From positions 186,001 to 250,000 of the forward strand of contig NZ_JAUSPQ010000006.1 of the NCBI RefSeq assembly GCF_030655665.1: a DNA stretch of 64,000 nucleotides. The letters are read 5' to 3'. The translations under genes and the position numbers were made by a program. This document shows, piece after piece, positions 30,729-56,938 of this stretch (position 1 is the stretch's first letter; every line of letters starts with the position of its first letter). Source of the DNA: Methanocorpusculum sp. (GTDB lineage Archaea > Halobacteriota > Methanomicrobia > Methanomicrobiales > Methanocorpusculaceae). The notes below the pieces were generated by a model. It searched no databases and was not told where the DNA came from. It saw only the letters and a list, made by a program, of their open reading frames with translations.

Positions 30729-31013
30729 ATGGATAACGAGCAGGGTGGTCCTTCCCCTCTTTCCGATATTTTGGTCACGGACGAGGTCATCGCGTACATG
30801 GATAAACGCGGCGGGGATTTTCGAATAAGTACTTCGTGCAGCGGTCCGGTCCTGATGCCGGTACGGATACGCCCGGCGAAATCGTCTGATATCCCCCTTC
30901 GGGCGGGAGACCATGTGATCTTCATCTCCAAGTATCAGATCCAGTGGATATCCGAGATCAACATGCGCATGGTTCCGCGGCTTCTTTTCGAAGACGGCGA
31001 TTATGGCTATTGA
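30729..31013 (+). CDS. Conserved small protein of unknown function
   Basis: A 94-residue protein that I do not recognise. It has no membrane segment or cysteine cluster (one Cys). The middle (GDFRISTSCSGPVLMPVRIR) and LRAGDHVIFISKYQIQWI suggest a compact beta fold. It overlaps the archease start by 11 bases, so it is almost certainly translated with archease and RtcB, and a role near RNA ligation is worth asking about. Confidence 0.7.
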   Translation: MDNEQGGPSPLSDILVTDEVIAYMDKRGGDFRISTSCSGPVLMPVRIRPAKSSDIPLRAGDHVIFISKYQIQWISEINMRMVPRLLFEDGDYGY

Positions 31014-31413
31014 AGAGCTGGAACATACTGCGGATATCCGCATGCGGATCTCGGCACCTGACCTTTCATCCCTGTTTTCTGAAAGCGGGTCCGCTCTGGC
31101 AAAGACTTTGTACGGCGACTATCCTTTTGAGACCCCGACGGTTTCATTTTCCATTGAAGCTGAAGGAAAAGACCGCGAGGAGCTGATCGTTAATTTCCTT
31201 TCTGAACTGTTGTTTCTCACAGAAACCGAGTATCTCGTACCGCAGAAGTTTACGCTCACGGTAGGAGACTCTGTTTCCGGCACGGTCGAAGGGGTCCTCT
31301 TCGACAGAAAAAAACATGCCGGCGGTACCGGAGTGAAAGGTATCTCCTACTCAGGTCTTTCACTGACCGGAACAAAAACAGGATATGAACTGATAATCAT
31401 CTTCGACATCTAA
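31003..31413 (+). CDS. Archease, RtcB-activating protein
   Basis: Promotes guanylylation and multiple turnover of the RNA ligase RtcB. It has 136 residues with the family opening IEELEHTADIRMRI and the conserved metal-binding Asp/Glu positions (HTADIR; VNFLSELLFLTETE; C-terminal IIIFDI). The gene is six bases upstream of rtcB, the usual pairing. Confidence 0.93.
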   Translation: MAIEELEHTADIRMRISAPDLSSLFSESGSALAKTLYGDYPFETPTVSFSIEAEGKDREELIVNFLSELLFLTETEYLVPQKFTLTVGDSVSGTVEGVLFDRKKHAGGTGVKGISYSGLSLTGTKTGYELIIIFDI

Positions 31414-31418
31414 ACATC

Positions 31419-32852
31419 ATGAACGATCAGATACATAAGATCACAAATAACGAGTGGGAGATCCCCATGGATTTTGTTCCGGGGATGCGGGTCCCCGGAC
31501 GGTTTTTCCTTTCGGAAAACCTTGCAGAAACTCTTGAAGACGGAGCTCTCACTCAGCTTGCCAATGTGGCAACACTTCCGGGCATCCTGCGGTATTCGCT
31601 TGGCATGCCGGATATCCATTGGGGGTATGGCTTTCCTATCGGCGGCGTCGGTGCTTTTGACGCGGAAACCGGGGTCATCTCTCCGGGCGGCGTAGGGTTC
31701 GATATCAACTGCGGTGTCCGGATGATCACGACCCCCCTGCACGTTTCCGATATTCCTGATATGAAAGGGATCATCGAGGATCTTTTCACCGCGGTCCCTA
31801 CCGGGGTCGGTTCAAAGAGTCCGATCCGTTTATCGCAGAACGATCTATCTTCAATGCTGGAAGACGGAGCAAAGAACGCGGTCGAGATGGGATACGGCAT
31901 GGCAGGCGATATCCCGCGTTGCGAGGAGAACGGGGCGATGGGCGGCGCACAACCGGAACATGTCAGTAAAAAAGCCCGACAGCGGGGCATTCCCCAGTGC
32001 GGAACGCTTGGTTCCGGCAATCATTTCCTGGAGATCCAGGTCATCGATGATATCGCTGATGAGGCGACGGCAAAAACGTTCGGCGTCTCAGAAGGGCAGA
32101 TATGTGTGATGATCCACTGCGGTTCACGGGGTCTTGGGCATCAGGTCTGCACCGATCATCTGCAGATCCTTGAGTCGGCAACGAAAAAATACGGCATAGA
32201 ACTTCCCGACCGTCAGCTTGCCTGTGCTCCGCTCTCTTCTCCCGAGGGAGAAGCATATTTCGGTGCCATGGCGGCTTCTGCAAATTATGCCTGGGCAAAC
32301 CGTCAGATCATCACGCATATCGTCAGGGAACTTTTCGTGAAAAAATTCCAGGTCGATTACGAAGAGATGCCTCTCGTGTATGATGTTGCTCACAATGTCG
32401 CAAAATGGGAGGAGCACGAGGTCGACGGGCTCCGGCAAAAAGTCTGCGTCCACCGGAAAGGAGCGACCCGGGCTTTTGGTCCGGGCAGGGCCGAGCTCCC
32501 TCACGAGTTCCGTGCCTGCGGTCAGCCGGTGATCATCCCCGGAAGTATGGGGACGTCATCCTATCTTCTCGCAGGGACCCAAGGAGCAATGGAAAAAACG
32601 TTCGGGAGTACCTGTCACGGATCGGGCAGAGTAAAAAGTCGATCTTCAGCGAAAAAATGTCAGACCGGCGAGGAGGTCGCACATGCCCTTCTCGAGCAGG
32701 GAATCATTGTTCGGGCGCCGAATCAGGCGGCTATCGCAGAAGAGGCGCCCGATGTGTATAAATCCAGCAGCGAGGTCGTTCAGACCGTTCATGATGCCGG
32801 GATCTCCCGGATCGTCGCACGCCTGAGGCCGCTTGGAGTGATCAAAGGATGA
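31419..32852 (+). CDS. rtcB: RNA-splicing ligase RtcB
   Basis: Joins RNA 2',3'-cyclic phosphate or 3'-phosphate to 5'-OH ends; seals tRNA exons after intron removal. The 477-residue protein has the metal and guanylate motifs: GVGFDINCGVRM near residues 91-102, GTLGSGNHFLEIQ near 195-207, MIHCGSRGLGHQV near 231-243, and the C-terminal His region HGSGRVKSRSSAKK near 399. No intein is present. It overlaps the next gene by four bases. Confidence 0.97.
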   Translation: MNDQIHKITNNEWEIPMDFVPGMRVPGRFFLSENLAETLEDGALTQLANVATLPGILRYSLGMPDIHWGYGFPIGGVGAFDAETGVISPGGVGFDINCGVRMITTPLHVSDIPDMKGIIEDLFTAVPTGVGSKSPIRLSQNDLSSMLEDGAKNAVEMGYGMAGDIPRCEENGAMGGAQPEHVSKKARQRGIPQCGTLGSGNHFLEIQVIDDIADEATAKTFGVSEGQICVMIHCGSRGLGHQVCTDHLQILESATKKYGIELPDRQLACAPLSSPEGEAYFGAMAASANYAWANRQIITHIVRELFVKKFQVDYEEMPLVYDVAHNVAKWEEHEVDGLRQKVCVHRKGATRAFGPGRAELPHEFRACGQPVIIPGSMGTSSYLLAGTQGAMEKTFGSTCHGSGRVKSRSSAKKCQTGEEVAHALLEQGIIVRAPNQAAIAEEAPDVYKSSSEVVQTVHDAGISRIVARLRPLGVIKG

Positions 32853-33501: not shown

Positions 33502-34488
33502 ATGAAAAACATAATATTTGATCTTCTGCATATTTTGGACGAAGCCGGAATTGACCAACCGGTTGCCGGAAACGTCATCAGTGAACGTCTGGGAATATCC
33601 CGTACCGCTGTCTGGAAATATGTCCATCTTTTGCGTGAGGTTGGATATGTTATAGATGCCTCGCCAAAAACCGGCTATACTCTCCGAAAACGTACTTGGC
33701 TCTTACTTCCATATGAGGTGAAGAGATATCTGAAGACCAAGGTCATCGGTCAGGATATGCATCATTTCGAACAGGTGCCTTCAACAAATGCTCTCGCCCG
33801 TCAGATGATGCATGAGGTCGGGGACGAAGTTCAGCCCGGAACTGTTCTTATCGCAGAACAGCAGACCGGCGGTCTTGGTCGTATGAACCGCGTGTGGATG
33901 TCGCCAGCAGGAGGTATCTGGGCGACGATCGTGGTGATGCCAAAACTACACGTCGATCAGACCTTCCTTATTATGATGGCGTCCTCCATATCACTTGCCC
34001 GTGCGATCCGTCACGAGTTTGAACTCTCTGCCCTGATCCAGTGGCCGAATGATGTGTTCATCGGCGATAAAAAGGTTGCTGGAACCACTATGGAACTTAC
34101 CGCGGATGAGGATATCATCCGTTACTGTCTGGTTGGGATCGGTGTTGATGTGAATGTTTCCGTCGAAAAAGTTATGCCGAATCTTTCCAATTTCGTAACA
34201 TCTCTCTCGGACGAGCTTGGCCATGATGTGGACCGAGCCCAGTTCTTTGCCGTGTTCTTAAAGGAGTTCGAACGCCGGTATGAGATGATCCTGAAAGGCG
34301 AGAAGGAATCGCTCTTCCGGGAGTGGAGAAGCCTTTCCCGTACGCTGCACCGCAGGGTCAGGGTCCGGACGATCAGGGAAAGCTTCGAAGGAGAGGCACT
34401 TGATGTCGATGAACACGGTGCTTTGATCATTCATAAAGATAATGGTGAAGTTGAACGCGTGATTGCGGGCGACTGCTATCTTATCTGA
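33502..34488 (+). CDS. birA: Biotin protein ligase and repressor BirA
   Basis: Attaches biotin to carboxylase subunits and, with its HTH, can repress biotin genes. The start is the ATG at 33502 (MKNIIFDLLHILDE); upstream codons are not family-like. Residues 15-60 form a winged helix (NVISERLGISRTAVWKYVHL). The ligase domain has GGLGRMNRVWMSPAGGIW near residues 122-139 (GRGRxGRxW-type loop) and QWPNDVFIGDKKVAG near 180. At 328 residues it is full length. The operator at 34499-34530 just downstream is a fitting target. Confidence 0.93.
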   Translation: MKNIIFDLLHILDEAGIDQPVAGNVISERLGISRTAVWKYVHLLREVGYVIDASPKTGYTLRKRTWLLLPYEVKRYLKTKVIGQDMHHFEQVPSTNALARQMMHEVGDEVQPGTVLIAEQQTGGLGRMNRVWMSPAGGIWATIVVMPKLHVDQTFLIMMASSISLARAIRHEFELSALIQWPNDVFIGDKKVAGTTMELTADEDIIRYCLVGIGVDVNVSVEKVMPNLSNFVTSLSDELGHDVDRAQFFAVFLKEFERRYEMILKGEKESLFREWRSLSRTLHRRVRVRTIRESFEGEALDVDEHGALIIHKDNGEVERVIAGDCYLI

Positions 34489-34498
34489 TCCTTTTTTA

Positions 34499-34530
34499 TT
34501 GTTAACCGCCATAATATATTTGGTTAACAA
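34499..34530 (+). promoter_or_regulatory. BirA-type operator over the bioY promoter
   Basis: TTGTTAACC and its exact reverse complement GGTTAACAA are separated by 14 bases. This agrees with the known BirA operator layout (TTGTAAACC/GGTTAACAA-like halves with a 14-16 base spacer). The spacer carries ataatatatt, the only TATA-like sequence before bioY, and the last A of the right half is the A of the bioY ATG. Binding would block promoter access or the mRNA start. Confidence 0.85.
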
Positions 34531-35069
34531 TGTACGGAAACGAGAAACGTTCGAGTCTTATTATTTATTCTGCGGTGTTTGTGGCATTGATCACGGTCGG
34601 CGGCTGGATATCTATCCCGTTTATCGTTCCGTTCACTCTTCAGACACTTTTTGTTTTGCTTGCGGCATCAGTGATGAAAAAATACGCGGTGATCCCGGCA
34701 GCTTTGTATGTGTTGTTTGGAACGCTTGGTCTCCCGCTTTTTCACAACGGCACTGCCGGGATCGGGATTCTGTTTGGTCCGACCGGCGGGTTTTTGATCG
34801 GTTTCATTCTGATGGCGTTCATTGCAGGCATGTTCTTTTCGAAAAAAACCCTGTCTGCCGATATAACCGGGCTTGTTCTCGCAACTCTTCTCAGTTATAT
34901 CTTTGGCGCCGGATGGTTCATGATCTCGTCGGGAGCTACGCTTCCGGCTGCATTGATCACCTGTGTGGTCCCGTTTATTGCCGGCGATGTCATAAAAATC
35001 ACAGCGGCGGAACTGGTGACGCTCCGTCTTCGAAAAAGTGAGGGATCTGCTCTTGATCCAGATCGATGA
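34530..35069 (+). CDS. bioY: Biotin transporter S component BioY
   Basis: High-affinity biotin-binding membrane subunit of an ECF transporter. The 179 residues form six helices, with the family motif GTLGLPLFHNGTAGIGILFG near residues 70-89 followed by PTGGFLIGF. The start is the ATG at 34530, inside the BirA operator half. It overlaps the ATPase gene by 32 bases (or less if a later ATPase start is used). Confidence 0.93.
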   Translation: MYGNEKRSSLIIYSAVFVALITVGGWISIPFIVPFTLQTLFVLLAASVMKKYAVIPAALYVLFGTLGLPLFHNGTAGIGILFGPTGGFLIGFILMAFIAGMFFSKKTLSADITGLVLATLLSYIFGAGWFMISSGATLPAALITCVVPFIAGDVIKITAAELVTLRLRKSEGSALDPDR

Positions 35070-35628
35070 TCTCCGTCACGGCGTTTTGGATATCCCTTCT
35101 CTTGTGATCCTGCCTGGACTAACGGTGGTCTCCGGAAAAAACGGGGCCGGGAAGACCACGCTCCTGAAGATCTGTTCGGGACTTATTTTGCCGACAATGG
35201 GCTCGGTGAGTATTGACGGTCTTTCTCCTCGTTTGCAGAATGTCGACTACGTGAGCGAGTTTCCCGACCGTCATCTGCTGTTTCCGATCGTCTATGACGA
35301 GATCTCCTCCCCCCTTCGGTTTGCCGGAATCCCGCAGGCGGAGATCGAGGAAAAAGTTTTGAAAACAGCAGAGGGGGCGGGTATAACACATCTTCTCAAG
35401 AGAGAATGCAGGACACTCTCCGGCGGAGAGAAGATGCTCGTTGGGATAACGGCGGCGATCATTCATGATCCGGTCCTTCTTGTTCTTGATGAGCCGGATT
35501 CCCATCTGGATCCGGAAACCGTTGAAGATCTTCTCTCGTTTATTTCTTCGAGGAATATTTCGTATGTGATGTGGAGTTCGCATTCCACGGCGCTCAGACG
35601 TAAAGCGGATTTTGAGGTGAGGTTATGA
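35038..35628 (+). CDS. ECF transporter ATPase 1
   Basis: ABC-type ATPase that powers the biotin transporter. It has 196 residues with Walker A GKNGAGKTT near residues 33-41, the ECF Q-loop area DRHLLFPIVYDEI, signature LSGGEK near 124 and Walker B VLLVLDEPDSHLD near 143-155. The GTG start at 35038 overlaps bioY; the overlap with the second ATPase is four bases. Confidence 0.9.
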   Translation: MRDLLLIQIDDLRHGVLDIPSLVILPGLTVVSGKNGAGKTTLLKICSGLILPTMGSVSIDGLSPRLQNVDYVSEFPDRHLLFPIVYDEISSPLRFAGIPQAEIEEKVLKTAEGAGITHLLKRECRTLSGGEKMLVGITAAIIHDPVLLVLDEPDSHLDPETVEDLLSFISSRNISYVMWSSHSTALRRKADFEVRL

Positions 35629-36188
35629 GGATCGTTCTTGATGATGTTCACCTTCATGCAGGTACGTTTTCTCTGACGGCAGACACCGTTTTCGAGGAGG
35701 GGGTCCATATGATATCCGGTAGGGTGGGTTCAGGCAAATCCACGCTTGGCTCGGCTCTTGCGGGCTTATCCAAGGTAGAATCCGGACAAATCAGTTTTGA
35801 AGGATGCGGTTCGCCGGTTCTTTTGATGCAGTTTCCCGAGTATCAGGTGACGGGCGCGACGATTTTGCGTGAGATATCCTCATGGGGCGTTTCCCGTGAG
35901 GATCCGATTTTCTCCCGTTTCGATGTGGAGATACGGGACCGGGATCCGTTCACGCTTTCTCGCGGAGAACTGAAACGGCTGATGCTCGCCTGTGTTTTTG
36001 CGAAAGATCCGGATGTTCTTGTTCTCGATGAGCCGTATGCTTCGCTTGATCAGTCGGCGAAAGAGGTTTTGACCGGTCTGATAGAGAGCCGCCGCGGGAT
36101 AACGGTCGTCTTTTCCCATGAGACGGAGTATGCGCCGAAGAATTCCCGGAAGTGGAAGATACACAACGGAGGGCTGCACTGTGAGTGA
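35625..36188 (+). CDS. ECF transporter ATPase 2
   Basis: Second, divergent ATPase of the pair. The 187 residues contain Walker A GRVGSGKST near residues 32-40, a degenerate signature LSRGELKRL near 111 and Walker B VLVLDEPYASLD near 130. ECF modules often pair two ATPases, one with a weaker signature, as here. It overlaps the next start by eight bases. Confidence 0.9.
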   Translation: MRIVLDDVHLHAGTFSLTADTVFEEGVHMISGRVGSGKSTLGSALAGLSKVESGQISFEGCGSPVLLMQFPEYQVTGATILREISSWGVSREDPIFSRFDVEIRDRDPFTLSRGELKRLMLACVFAKDPDVLVLDEPYASLDQSAKEVLTGLIESRRGITVVFSHETEYAPKNSRKWKIHNGGLHCE

Positions 36189-36807
36189 TATCAGATTTCG
36201 GCTTCTTACGCTTGTGCTTCTTTCGGTCCTTTCCTTTGTGAGTCTGTTTGGAGCGGCGGCGGTTTTCTGCTGGTGGATCGTCTTTGGTGCGAAGACGACG
36301 TTTGCAAAAAATTCCTGGAAAGTGGTGATCCCGGTATCGATATTTGTCGGTCTGTTTCCCTCGGTCGTTTTGTATTTTACCGGCGGGGATGTTTTTTACG
36401 GAGCAAAGATCTTCGTTCTCGTTCTGCTTGCCTTCTGGTTTTCGGCTTCGCTCCTCTCCGGCGAGCTGATGAGTTTCTTTGTCTGGGTTTTTGGTCAGGG
36501 AAGCGGTTTTGATCTGGGGATGGCTGCCGAGTTTTCCGTTCAGGCGATCAGCGAGATCCGTGAAGATTTTCTGCATATGTGGTCTGCACTCAGGATCAAG
36601 GGGCAGAAGTTTTCCGTTTTGGCCATTCCCTCTCTTGCGGCAGGTCTGCTTATACTTTCGTTGAGGAGGGCTGGCGTCCAGTCATCACTTCTGGCAAGAC
36701 GGGGGTATATCTCGGGCGGGACGTATGTCCCGGTGTTTTCGCCTGCTGTGTTTGATTTTCTGATGCTTGGAAGTGCGGTTTTTCTGTATGGCGTGCTACT
36801 GGTTTGA
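36181..36807 (+). CDS. ECF transporter T component-like membrane protein
   Basis: A 208-residue protein from the GTG at 36181 with four or five helices. It follows the S component and two ATPases in an unbroken operon, so it should be the EcfT/BioN coupling subunit. The usual cytosolic Ala-Arg-Gly coupling motifs are not clear; MWSALRIKGQKF near residues 131-142 may be a divergent one. Family assignment rests mainly on context. Confidence 0.7.
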   Translation: MSDIRFRLLTLVLLSVLSFVSLFGAAAVFCWWIVFGAKTTFAKNSWKVVIPVSIFVGLFPSVVLYFTGGDVFYGAKIFVLVLLAFWFSASLLSGELMSFFVWVFGQGSGFDLGMAAEFSVQAISEIREDFLHMWSALRIKGQKFSVLAIPSLAAGLLILSLRRAGVQSSLLARRGYISGGTYVPVFSPAVFDFLMLGSAVFLYGVLLV

Positions 36808-36844
36808 GATGTGGGGGCATACCTGTCTACTCGCAAGGCAAAGA

Positions 36845-36940
36845 CTTGGTCGCAAATCAAAGATTTGCTCCGCTGAGGTCGGCCGCTTCGCGCTCACCCC
36901 GCCTCAGCTAAGGCCGCCCCTCCGGGTCAGCCCGCCACAC
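36845..36940. repeat. GCAA/TTGC hairpin-module repeat, copy A
   Basis: Intergenic element after the biotin operon. It contains GCAAATC-aaa-GATTTGC followed by TC (36852-36870), then GCTGAGG and CCTCAGC pairing around a GC-rich core, and ends in ccgggtcagcccgcc. The same modules occur at 56774-56938 and, in another form, in the large inverted repeat at 48891-49275. No coding capacity. Confidence 0.7.
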
Positions 36941-36975
36941 AAACAAATTTTATCCCAGGGAACCTACAATGAATC

Positions 36976-38183: not shown

Positions 38184-39935
38184 ATGAGCAGGGAGAACAC
38201 CATGAAAAAACTCAATATTACCGACACAACGCTCCGTGACGCTCATCAGTCACTAGCGGCAACGCGTATGCGAACCGAAGATATGCTCGGTCTTGCCCGC
38301 GAGATGGAAAAAGCCGGATTTTGGTCCGTAGAAGCGTGGGGCGGGGCAACCTTTGACACCTGTATCAGATACTTAAACGACGATCCCTGGAATCGTCTCA
38401 GAACGCTTCGCGAAATATTTGTCAAGACCCCGATCCAGATGCTTCTGCGCGGGCAAAATCTTGTTGGATATCGTCACTACCCCGATGATGTCGTTGACAA
38501 ATTCGTCTCCTCCGCATCAGAAAACGGGGTCCGTGTCTTTCGGGTCTTTGACGCACTGAACGATATCAGAAACATGCAGAGGTCCATGACCGCTGTCATC
38601 GACACCGGAAATCACCTGCAGGGCACTATATCCTATACGACCAGCCCTGTCCACAGCATCGAAGGTTTCGTTACAATGGCTGAGGAACTCTACGCCCTTG
38701 GCTGCAACTCGATATGTATCAAAGATATGGCAGGACTCATCATGCCTGAGTCTGCCCGTGAACTGATCACCGGCATCAAAGAACGGCTCGACATCCCTGT
38801 CTGTCTTCACAGCCACTCGACAAGCGGCATTGCCCCCATGAGTTATCAGGCGGCGATCGAAGCAGGCGTCGATATCCTGGACACCGCCATGTCCCCCTTT
38901 GCAGGCGGAACAAGTCAGCCCGCAACAGAAAGTATCGTGGCATCCCTCATTGGAACGCCCCGTGACACGAACATCTCCCTCTCGACTCTCCGTTCGATCA
39001 AAGTCGCAGCGGCAAACATCAGAGGAAAATATGACTGCCTGATCGATCCGATCAGTGTCAGGATCGACAGCGATGTTCTGATCTATCAGCTCCCCGGCGG
39101 TATGATCTCCAACCTTGTCTCCCAGCTGAAAGAGCAGAATGCTCTCGACAAAATGGAAGAGGTCCTTCTCGAGATCCCCAAGGTCAGAGATGATCTTGGA
39201 TTCCCGCCGCTTGTAACGCCGACCTCCCAGATCGTCGGTACCCAGGCTGTTTTAAACGTTTTAATGGGCGGACGCTACAAGACCGTCACGAACGAAGTCC
39301 GCGATTATCTCAAAGGACTCTATGGAAAGAGCCCGAAACCGCTCGATGATGCTCTCGTAACCTCGATCATCGGCGATGTTCCGCGTATCTCCTGCCGCCC
39401 GGCAGATACGCTTGAACCGATCTACGATAAAATGAAAGCCGACGCCGAAGCTCAGGGACTCATCAAAAAAGAAGAGGATGTCCTCACCTACATCCTCTAT
39501 CCTGCCATCGCTCCGGCATTCCTGAAAGGCGAAAAGACAGCCGAAGCATTCCCGGTGATCCCGACCTCTGTCGGAGGCATGGCGCCTACGGATTATGACA
39601 TCCCCAGATCCATGGAAGTCGAAGTCGACGGTGAGATATTTGCTGTGCGGATCCTCTCTGTTGAAGGAGAAGCTATTGTCAGCTCCGGAAAACCGACCGA
39701 GACCCGTCACCGCGGCGATGTTCCCGGCGGCGTGAAGAGCAGTATCCAGGGCATGGTCCTTGACATCAAAGTTCAGGCAGGTCAGAAAGTATCTGCAGGT
39801 GAGACCCTCCTCGTTCTCGAAGCAATGAAAATGGAGAACCCCATCGTCAGTCCGATCGACGGAACGGTCACCGAAATTTTCGTCGAGAACGGAGCAGTCG
39901 TCCAGAGCGGCGATGTGTTAGTGGTGGTGCAATGA
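38184..39935 (+). CDS. pycB: Pyruvate carboxylase subunit B (biotinylated)
   Basis: Transfers carbon dioxide from biotin to pyruvate to make oxaloacetate. The N-terminal carboxyltransferase TIM barrel opens DTTLRDAHQSLAATRMRTED near residues 13-32, with EAWGGATFD near 51. The C-terminal biotinyl domain has the lysine in EAMKMEN near residue 548. An ATG at 38202 (MKKLNITDT) may be the true start. The 583-residue length is usual. The gene pair depends on the BirA and BioY genes just upstream. Confidence 0.95.
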   Translation: MSRENTMKKLNITDTTLRDAHQSLAATRMRTEDMLGLAREMEKAGFWSVEAWGGATFDTCIRYLNDDPWNRLRTLREIFVKTPIQMLLRGQNLVGYRHYPDDVVDKFVSSASENGVRVFRVFDALNDIRNMQRSMTAVIDTGNHLQGTISYTTSPVHSIEGFVTMAEELYALGCNSICIKDMAGLIMPESARELITGIKERLDIPVCLHSHSTSGIAPMSYQAAIEAGVDILDTAMSPFAGGTSQPATESIVASLIGTPRDTNISLSTLRSIKVAAANIRGKYDCLIDPISVRIDSDVLIYQLPGGMISNLVSQLKEQNALDKMEEVLLEIPKVRDDLGFPPLVTPTSQIVGTQAVLNVLMGGRYKTVTNEVRDYLKGLYGKSPKPLDDALVTSIIGDVPRISCRPADTLEPIYDKMKADAEAQGLIKKEEDVLTYILYPAIAPAFLKGEKTAEAFPVIPTSVGGMAPTDYDIPRSMEVEVDGEIFAVRILSVEGEAIVSSGKPTETRHRGDVPGGVKSSIQGMVLDIKVQAGQKVSAGETLLVLEAMKMENPIVSPIDGTVTEIFVENGAVVQSGDVLVVVQ

Positions 39936-41434
39936 GTAAAAACGAATACTTTGACAAAGTATTAGTTGCAAACCGGGGAGAGATCGCCATCCGCGTTATG
40001 CGTGCATGCCGGGAAATGGGCATCGAAACGGTCGCAGTTTACTCAGAAGCCGATGCAAACGCATTACACGTGAAGTACGCCGATGAGGCTTTTCTCATCG
40101 GAGCTGCTCACCCGACGAAAAGCTACCTCAATATGGACAGGATCCTCGAGGTCGCCGAAATGGCCGGAGCCGACGCGATCCACCCGGGATACGGGTTTCT
40201 TGCAGAAAAAGCAGCCTTTTCCGGTGCGGTGACAAAAGCAGGTTTCACCTTTATCGGTCCATCTGAAGCAACCATCAAAATGATGGGTTCGAAGCTCGAT
40301 TCCAAGCAGGCGATGCATGACGTCGGGGTCCCGGTCCTTCCCTGGACCAAGAGTACCGACCATGACGAGGCAAAAGCATTTGCCGAATCGATCGGTTACC
40401 CGGTTATCGTGAAAGCGTCCGCCGGCGGAGGGGGTATCGGTATGACGATCGTCAACAACGAGACCGAACTCGACGAAGCGATCGCAAAATCCAGCAGGAC
40501 AGCGGCTTCCGCTTTCGGCGATTCCACGGTCTTCATCGAAAAGTATCTGGCAAAGCCCAGACACATCGAGGTCCAGATCTTCGCTGATGGAAAAGGGGAT
40601 GTGATCCACATGTTTGAGCGTGAGTGTTCTATTCAGAGACGTCACCAGAAACTCATCGAAGAGTCGCCATGCCCCATCATGACCGATGAACTCCGCGAAA
40701 GAATGACCCAGTCTGCGATCACCGTTGCAAAAACCTGTAATTATGAAAATGCCGGGACCGTTGAGTTCCTGTATGATTCGGGGAACTATTATTTCATGGA
40801 GATGAACACCCGTCTGCAGGTCGAACACACCGTGACCGAGCTGATCACCGGCCTCGATCTGGTCAGAATGCAGATCAAGGTCGCAGCCGGCGAACCTCTT
40901 CCCTATGCTCAGGACCAGGTCACCTGCAGGGGACATGCGATCGAGTGCCGTGTGAACGCCGAGGATCCGATGAACAACTTCCAGGCGGATGCAGGAAAGA
41001 TCAGCCGTTACCGGTCCCCCGGTGGTCCGGGTATCAGGATCGACAGCTGCATCCATGCAGGATACTCGATCCCGCCGCTGTATGACTCGATGATCGCAAA
41101 ACTTTGTGCGAGAGCAATGACCCGTGAGGAGACCGTCGCGAGAATGCGTCGTGCACTCACTGAATACGTCATCATCGGCGTGAAGACGACACTTCCGCTC
41201 CATTATGCAGTGATGAACAATCCGGAGTTTATCGCAGGAAATACCCACACGCATTTCCTTCAGGATCCGGAAATCACCCGGTCTCTTACGAGATATATGC
41301 GTGAAAGCGAGACCCGTATGAATCAGCTCGGAGATTCCCTCCGTCAGGGAAAAGAAAAAACCATCGCGGTCACCGCGGCAGTCAGCGCTTATATGAGTGC
41401 TCTTGCAGCAAAGAACGGCCAGAAAAAAGAATAA
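39932..41434 (+). CDS. pycA: Pyruvate carboxylase subunit A (biotin carboxylase)
   Basis: ATP-dependent carboxylation of biotin. The ATP-grasp protein (500 residues) carries KASAGGGGIGM near residues 158-168, ERECSIQRRHQKLIEES near 229 and MEMNTRLQVEHTVTE near 289. It overlaps pycB by four bases; the order B then A is inverted compared with pycA-pycB of several other methanogens. Confidence 0.96.
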   Translation: MSKNEYFDKVLVANRGEIAIRVMRACREMGIETVAVYSEADANALHVKYADEAFLIGAAHPTKSYLNMDRILEVAEMAGADAIHPGYGFLAEKAAFSGAVTKAGFTFIGPSEATIKMMGSKLDSKQAMHDVGVPVLPWTKSTDHDEAKAFAESIGYPVIVKASAGGGGIGMTIVNNETELDEAIAKSSRTAASAFGDSTVFIEKYLAKPRHIEVQIFADGKGDVIHMFERECSIQRRHQKLIEESPCPIMTDELRERMTQSAITVAKTCNYENAGTVEFLYDSGNYYFMEMNTRLQVEHTVTELITGLDLVRMQIKVAAGEPLPYAQDQVTCRGHAIECRVNAEDPMNNFQADAGKISRYRSPGGPGIRIDSCIHAGYSIPPLYDSMIAKLCARAMTREETVARMRRALTEYVIIGVKTTLPLHYAVMNNPEFIAGNTHTHFLQDPEITRSLTRYMRESETRMNQLGDSLRQGKEKTIAVTAAVSAYMSALAAKNGQKKE

Positions 41435-56773: not shown

Positions 56774-56938
56774 GAGATTCGCGGTTAAATAACCCGACGG
56801 TCGCAAATCGGAGATTTGCTCAGCTAAGGGCGAGCCTGTTCGCAAACCTTCGGTTTGCTCTCCGACTCGGGTCTACGACCCTCGCTTGTCGGCTCACCCG
56901 CCTCGGCTGAGACCGACCTTGCGGGTCAGCCCGCAAAA
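56774..56938. repeat. GCAA/TTGC hairpin-module repeat, copy B
   Basis: The gap between the convergent cofD and pyrF genes contains GCAAATC-gga-GATTTGC-TC (56803-56820), then GCAAACC-ttc-GGTTTGC-TC (56842-56860), then a GGGT-ctacg-ACCC hairpin, and ends with gcgggtcagcccgc. It shares the GGTCGCAAATC opening, the CGCCTCGGCTGAG-type core and the end with copy A. It also shares attcgcggtt near 56778 with the large inverted repeat. Confidence 0.7.

Follow-up and report, generated by a model that had tools for sequence, protein, structure and literature searches.

A predicted BirA operator at the bioY promoter of Methanocorpusculum, in a genome with two HTH-bearing biotin protein ligases

A biotin protein ligase gene, birA1, lies just upstream of bioY in Methanocorpusculum sp., and the short gap between the two genes holds a perfect inverted repeat. 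What is this repeat, how does it lie relative to the bioY promoter, and which protein would act on it? The stretch of DNA analysed here (the window) is 64,000 nucleotides long, and its features are collected in Table 1. As the initial annotation had stated, the dyad TTGTTAACC-N14-GGTTAACAA is present at 34499-34530 with no mismatches, and the bioY ATG begins on its final base, 34530. We found that the perfect arms are actually 10 bp, since A34498 and T34531 pair as well. The distance from the birA1 stop codon to the dyad start is 11 bp. The dyad is matched once in the window and was not matched in any of 100 shuffles, and the number of matches expected in the window with up to three mismatches allowed is 0.01. 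Across the 1.81-Mb genome there was neither a second N14 site at three or fewer mismatches nor a second site with exact arms at spacers of N12-16. The genome-wide scan for further operators that had been proposed, including a search near pycB, found none besides 34499-34530, and the best windows near pycB, pycA, birA1 and birA2 stood at 7-8 mismatches.

Table 1. Features of the window at and around the predicted bioY operator
Feature	Position	Strand	Basis or remark
birA1, archaeal-type biotin protein ligase with N-terminal HTH (GISRTAVWKYVHLLREVGY)	33502..34488	+	PF03099, PF08279 (HTH_11), PF02237; TIGR00121 above cut-off
Probable bioY TATA element (TTTTTTATTG)	34492..34501	+	TATA-like peak; adjoins and partly overlaps left arm
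Predicted BirA-type operator	arms 34499-34507 and 34522-34530, 14-bp spacer	.	Unique match; kept upstream of bioY in relatives
AT-rich spacer	34508..34521	.	Length kept (14-15), letters not; holds the TATA-like string of the initial annotation
bioY, biotin-binding S component of ECF transporter	34530..35069	+	PF02632, E 1e-35
ECF ATPase 1	35038..35628	+	Overlaps bioY end; PF00005; best models cbiO/ECF_ATPase, below cut-off
ECF ATPase 2	35625..36188	+	PF00005; best model ECF_ATPase_2, below cut-off
Probable EcfT transmembrane subunit	36181..36807	+	Position and hydrophobicity; no family match
pycB	38184..39935	+	BirA substrate; no other biotin/lipoyl-domain protein found in the genome; no operator upstream
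pycA, biotin carboxylase subunit	39932..41434	+	No operator

The genes that follow bioY in the ECF operon have overlapping ends. Because PycB is the single biotin-domain protein and no bioB scored above the cut-off in the genome, the host most likely depends on biotin uptake, as a biotin auxotroph would. Two other features of this neighbourhood were seen. A GC-rich non-coding stretch at 36810-36960, after the ECF operon, has partial similar copies at 56799-56843, at 56892-56934 and in L062 near 1045-1080, and is possibly an interspersed repeat. At 31003-32852, as judged by eye from the sequence, an archease-like gene is directly followed by an RtcB-like RNA ligase gene.

The published BirA operator consensus is TTGTAAACC-N14/15-GGTTTACAA with position 5 variable (PMC545781). 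We found that the dyad fits this consensus exactly, as two inverted 9-bp half-sites TTGTNAACC with no mismatches and with a spacer of 14 within the allowed 14/15. A BirA operator is expected to sit before a gene of biotin synthesis or uptake, in a genome that encodes an HTH-bearing BirA, and to vary together with the DNA-binding domain of that protein. Here the dyad ends at the ATG of bioY, and an HTH is carried both by BirA1 (PF08279) and by a second ligase, BirA2, described below.

Thirteen Methanocorpusculum genomes (the present one and 12 congeners) have the dyad upstream of bioY, as do 5/5 genomes of the sister genus and members of several other Methanomicrobiales families. The spacer of these relatives is 14-15 long, and across 66 half-sites positions 4, 7 and 8 are invariant and position 3 varies once. 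We scanned 393 genomes of the phylum for the pattern TTGTNAACC-N14/15-GGTTNACAA with the reversed pattern as a control, and exact matches were observed in 12 genomes compared to one for the control. Eleven of the 12 matches lie directly upstream of bioY, four of these eleven being from outside Methanomicrobiales. The exact match at L108 (G390) sits upstream of a transporter-like gene and was taken as chance, not as an operator. When shuffled upstream regions were searched at up to three mismatches the result was 0/1600. One genome with an exact site in the phylum scan (G096) has a row that is out of register in the set of 34 sites considered below, and was left out of the pairing analysis of 33 sites.

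The presence of the site co-varies with the recognition helix of BirA. Among the single-BirA relatives, 14/14 genomes with an intact helix ([S/T]RxAxWK) have the operator, whereas it is absent or decayed where the helix is broken (0/7). The Fisher value for this comparison, 8.6e-6, is only a guide since the genomes are related, so that independence is overstated, and the broken helices amount to about 3-4 losses. The broken helices belong to two families, with helices of the PRSAVSHH-, PISSVTRQ- or APHMVSAS-type, and to G028, which has SQSAVWK. The sister genomes G033 and G028 make a telling pair: the BirA helix of G033 has the Arg, and its bioY is preceded by two good BirA-type dyads in tandem (L027), whereas in G028 the Arg has become Gln and both dyads are degenerate.

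We conclude that the dyad is very probably the operator of a biotin-sensing BirA repressor over the bioY-ECF operon, in a Methanocorpusculum that is probably a biotin auxotroph. The earlier assignment of a BirA-type site is borne out by the HTH-bearing BirA encoded next door, by the target, an operon of bioY and ECF ATPase genes, and by the co-variation of site and HTH across relatives. An inverted repeat in this position could also act as an RNA hairpin, either as a terminator of birA or by hiding the bioY start codon, and the repeat does fold, at -13.2 kcal/mol (z -3.7). However, 16/33 homologous sites have arm positions that do not pair, yet each of their arms alone fits the half-site. The site is also kept where bioY has no directly adjoining birA, and it co-varies with the BirA HTH. 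Since half of the homologous sites fail to pair, the hairpin or terminator was rejected, and we regard it as exceedingly improbable.

The predicted BirA operator was then set against the promoter. When the 34 sites were placed in register, TATA-like 8-mers peaked at offset -6 from the operator start (14/34), with five more at -8, and not in the spacer. In close congeners and in the sister genus the TATA-like element reads TTTTTTAT(T/C)G and lies just 5' of the left arm. Similarly, in genomes from outside the order a TATA-like TTATATATT or TTTAAGTAT adjoins the left arm, and this holds also for those with an ATG about 65-70 bp farther on. By its pattern and position, the corresponding stretch of the present genome is the probable TATA element of bioY. 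The usual archaeal spacing from the centre of the TATA box to the transcription start is 26-27 bp. With the TATA element at 34492-34501, this spacing predicts a bioY start at about 34522-34524, inside the right arm and just before the ATG. Since the conserved TATA-like element adjoins the left arm, the operator would span the region from the edge of the TATA element to the start site. In a crude test, the genome-wide histogram of TATA-to-ATG distances had a weak excess near -60 and no sharp leaderless signal, so by this measure a near-leaderless bioY transcript would not be typical of the promoters of this genome.

The initial annotation had placed the promoter differently, with TBP on a TATA box within the spacer and BirA embracing it. 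The TATA-like string is indeed present in the spacer, which reads GCCATAATATATTT (34508-34521), and TAATATAT at 34512-34519 looks like a TATA box. However, these letters differ in relatives, being AACACACAAATTAT in close congeners and AACAAACAATAAGGA and AACAAAGAGTGATCA in the sister genus. A TATA box at this position would also put the transcription start at about 34542, which is some 12 nt into the bioY coding sequence. Relatives keep the BioY N-terminus that begins at the 34530 ATG (MYG(N/D)E), and the conserved TATA-like element lies 5' of the left arm instead. On conservation and geometry the spacer string was rejected as the promoter, and the arrangement in which BirA embraces it is very unlikely.

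Next we consider the proteins that could bind. BirA1 has the domains of a group II BirA, with PF03099, PF02237 and PF08279 all above cut-off, and its alignment with the BirA proteins of S. aureus and E. coli covers the HTH and the ligase. Against NCBIfam TIGR00122 it scored 45.7 bits (E 4.6e-12), below the cut-off of 70 bits, which weakens a strict equivalog claim for BirA1 and leaves its domain architecture unaffected. BirA2, the second HTH-bearing ligase, is encoded outside the window, about 60 kb away (L062:4074-5033, which is G000:C6:160073-161032). It matches residues 8-321 of S. aureus BirA (E 4e-38) and so has the HTH and ligase of group II. We found that BirA2 is 28% identical to BirA1 compared to 50-53% identical to proteins of Anaerocolumna and Acetobacterium, and that it is monophyletic in the genus and nested among Firmicutes. 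From this placement BirA2 is best read as a horizontal acquisition from Firmicutes. In its close Firmicute relatives, birA itself is preceded at short distance by a site of the same kind as the bioY dyad.

The genome therefore has two HTH-bearing biotin protein ligases for one biotin-domain protein. This weakens the claim of a complete circuit built on the neighbouring BirA, since birA1, birA2, pycB and pycA have no operator and a second HTH-BirA, apparently derived from Firmicutes, is present. Values of pN/pS indicate that the HTHs of BirA1 and BirA2 are both constrained, that of BirA2 being under purifying selection like its catalytic part, so this comparison does not choose between the two proteins. 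The N-terminal domain of E. coli BirA is reported to organise the active site (PMC4016012), and by analogy the HTH of BirA1 may have been retained to serve ligase activity.

Which of the two proteins acts at the operator? It is quite possible, though short of probable, that BirA2 is the main repressor in Methanocorpusculum and that the neighbouring BirA1 is mainly a ligase. All 13 operator-bearing genomes of the genus have an HTH-bearing BirA2, and 5/5 genomes that have bioY and an HTH-less BirA2 lack the operator, even though BirA1 in these five has an intact, constrained HTH. In addition, the BirA1 helix of G013 has lost its Arg (SLTTVWKC, Leu for Arg) while the operator and the BirA2 helix are intact, and the purifying selection on the BirA2 HTH points in the same direction. 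However, the loss of the HTH and the loss of the operator share one branch and count as one event, on which bioY also moved to another gene context, and the G013 change is known from one multi-contig assembly. Furthermore, in the sister genus and elsewhere in the order the same operator occurs with a single bioY-adjoining BirA1-type protein. Since a single protein of this type accompanies the operator across the order, BirA1 appears to be the ancestral binder. The arms themselves do not decide the matter: donor-like sites of Firmicutes also have TTGTCAACC, and the C-to-T/A shift at arm position 5 is not diagnostic. A change of the arm from GTCAACC to GTTAACC was dropped as a mark of a switch to BirA2, since the Firmicute relatives of BirA2 use both.

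Alternatively, BirA1 alone, encoded directly upstream, could be the repressor, with BirA2 a redundant ligase whose HTH is retained for unrelated reasons; we hold this to be possible but rather doubtful. The birA-operator-bioY arrangement is ancestral across the order, the correspondence of helix and operator is perfect in genomes with a single BirA, and the BirA1 HTH is strongly constrained. Yet this HTH remains constrained in the clade without the operator, G013 retains the operator despite its damaged BirA1 helix, and the operator was lost together with the BirA2 HTH. Our data slightly favour participation of BirA2 in repression. We tentatively suggest that the promoter was ancestrally under the neighbouring BirA and is now under a BirA acquired from Firmicutes, which would read an archaeal TATA/TBP promoter, and that in one clade loss of the HTH accompanied loss of the operator.

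Several genomes of the genus depart from the common arrangement. In the clade L077-L084 (G018, G007, G010, G002, G023, G024, G022 and G006) BirA2 is a stand-alone ligase without an HTH, and bioY is without the operator or was not found. G023 (L017) lacks the BirA site, and the final 45 bp ahead of its bioY contain another inverted repeat (TATCATA ... TATGATA), which might be the site of another regulator. In G015 (L090) bioY is broken; a long inverted repeat has inserted immediately upstream and taken the place of the left arm, with only the right arm surviving and the HTH of BirA2 kept.

Rodionov, Mironov and Gelfand (2002, Genome Res 12:1507) reportedly described bioY as a member of the BirA regulon. 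The TTGTNAACC-N14/15-GGTTNACAA half-sites, the spacing, the bioY target and an HTH-bearing BirA are all common to that regulon and to the Methanocorpusculum site. Two things differ from the 2002 regulon: in Methanocorpusculum the position of the site is defined against a conserved archaeal TATA-type element, and there is a second HTH-BirA, of apparently bacterial origin. Archaeal BirA sites are thus known in outline, their class having been predicted already in 2002; the work of that year cited for the BirA consensus covers Eubacteria and Archaea according to its title (PMC545781). Bacillus subtilis likewise has a group II BirA and palindromic sites in the 5' regions of biotin genes, including yuiG, but there the promoter is bacterial, BirA is single and binding has been shown experimentally (PMC4016012), whereas the Methanocorpusculum site is known from sequence. 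Lactococcus lactis is similar in being a biotin auxotroph with two biotin protein ligases in which bioY is put under a group II BirA (PMC4861984). However, the HTH is found on only one of the L. lactis BirA proteins, in contrast to the operator-bearing Methanocorpusculum species, which have it on both. In a limited literature search we found no description of a state with two HTH-bearing BirA proteins.

Operator binding by B. subtilis BirA requires biotin and ATP (PMC4016012). For Methanocorpusculum we propose that with abundant biotin, and once apo-PycB has been consumed, BirA would retain biotinyl-AMP, and that BirA with biotinyl-AMP would dimerise and occupy both TTGTNAACC half-sites. The bound dimer, reaching from the edge of the TATA element to the start site, would then stop assembly or initiation by TBP, TFB and RNA polymerase. 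Repression could operate through a block to TBP, a block to the polymerase or both. Binding by BirA, its dependence on biotinyl-AMP and the repression of bioY are all predicted here from features of the DNA and of the encoded proteins.

The bioY site offers a clean and testable case of a bacterial-type metabolite repressor on a TBP/TFB promoter. Natural variants are available, among them a broken helix with a lost site, genomes with two BirA proteins, and a lost HTH. The two-BirA state of Methanocorpusculum could reveal the way in which a regulator gained by horizontal transfer joins a circuit already in place, shares it or takes it over.
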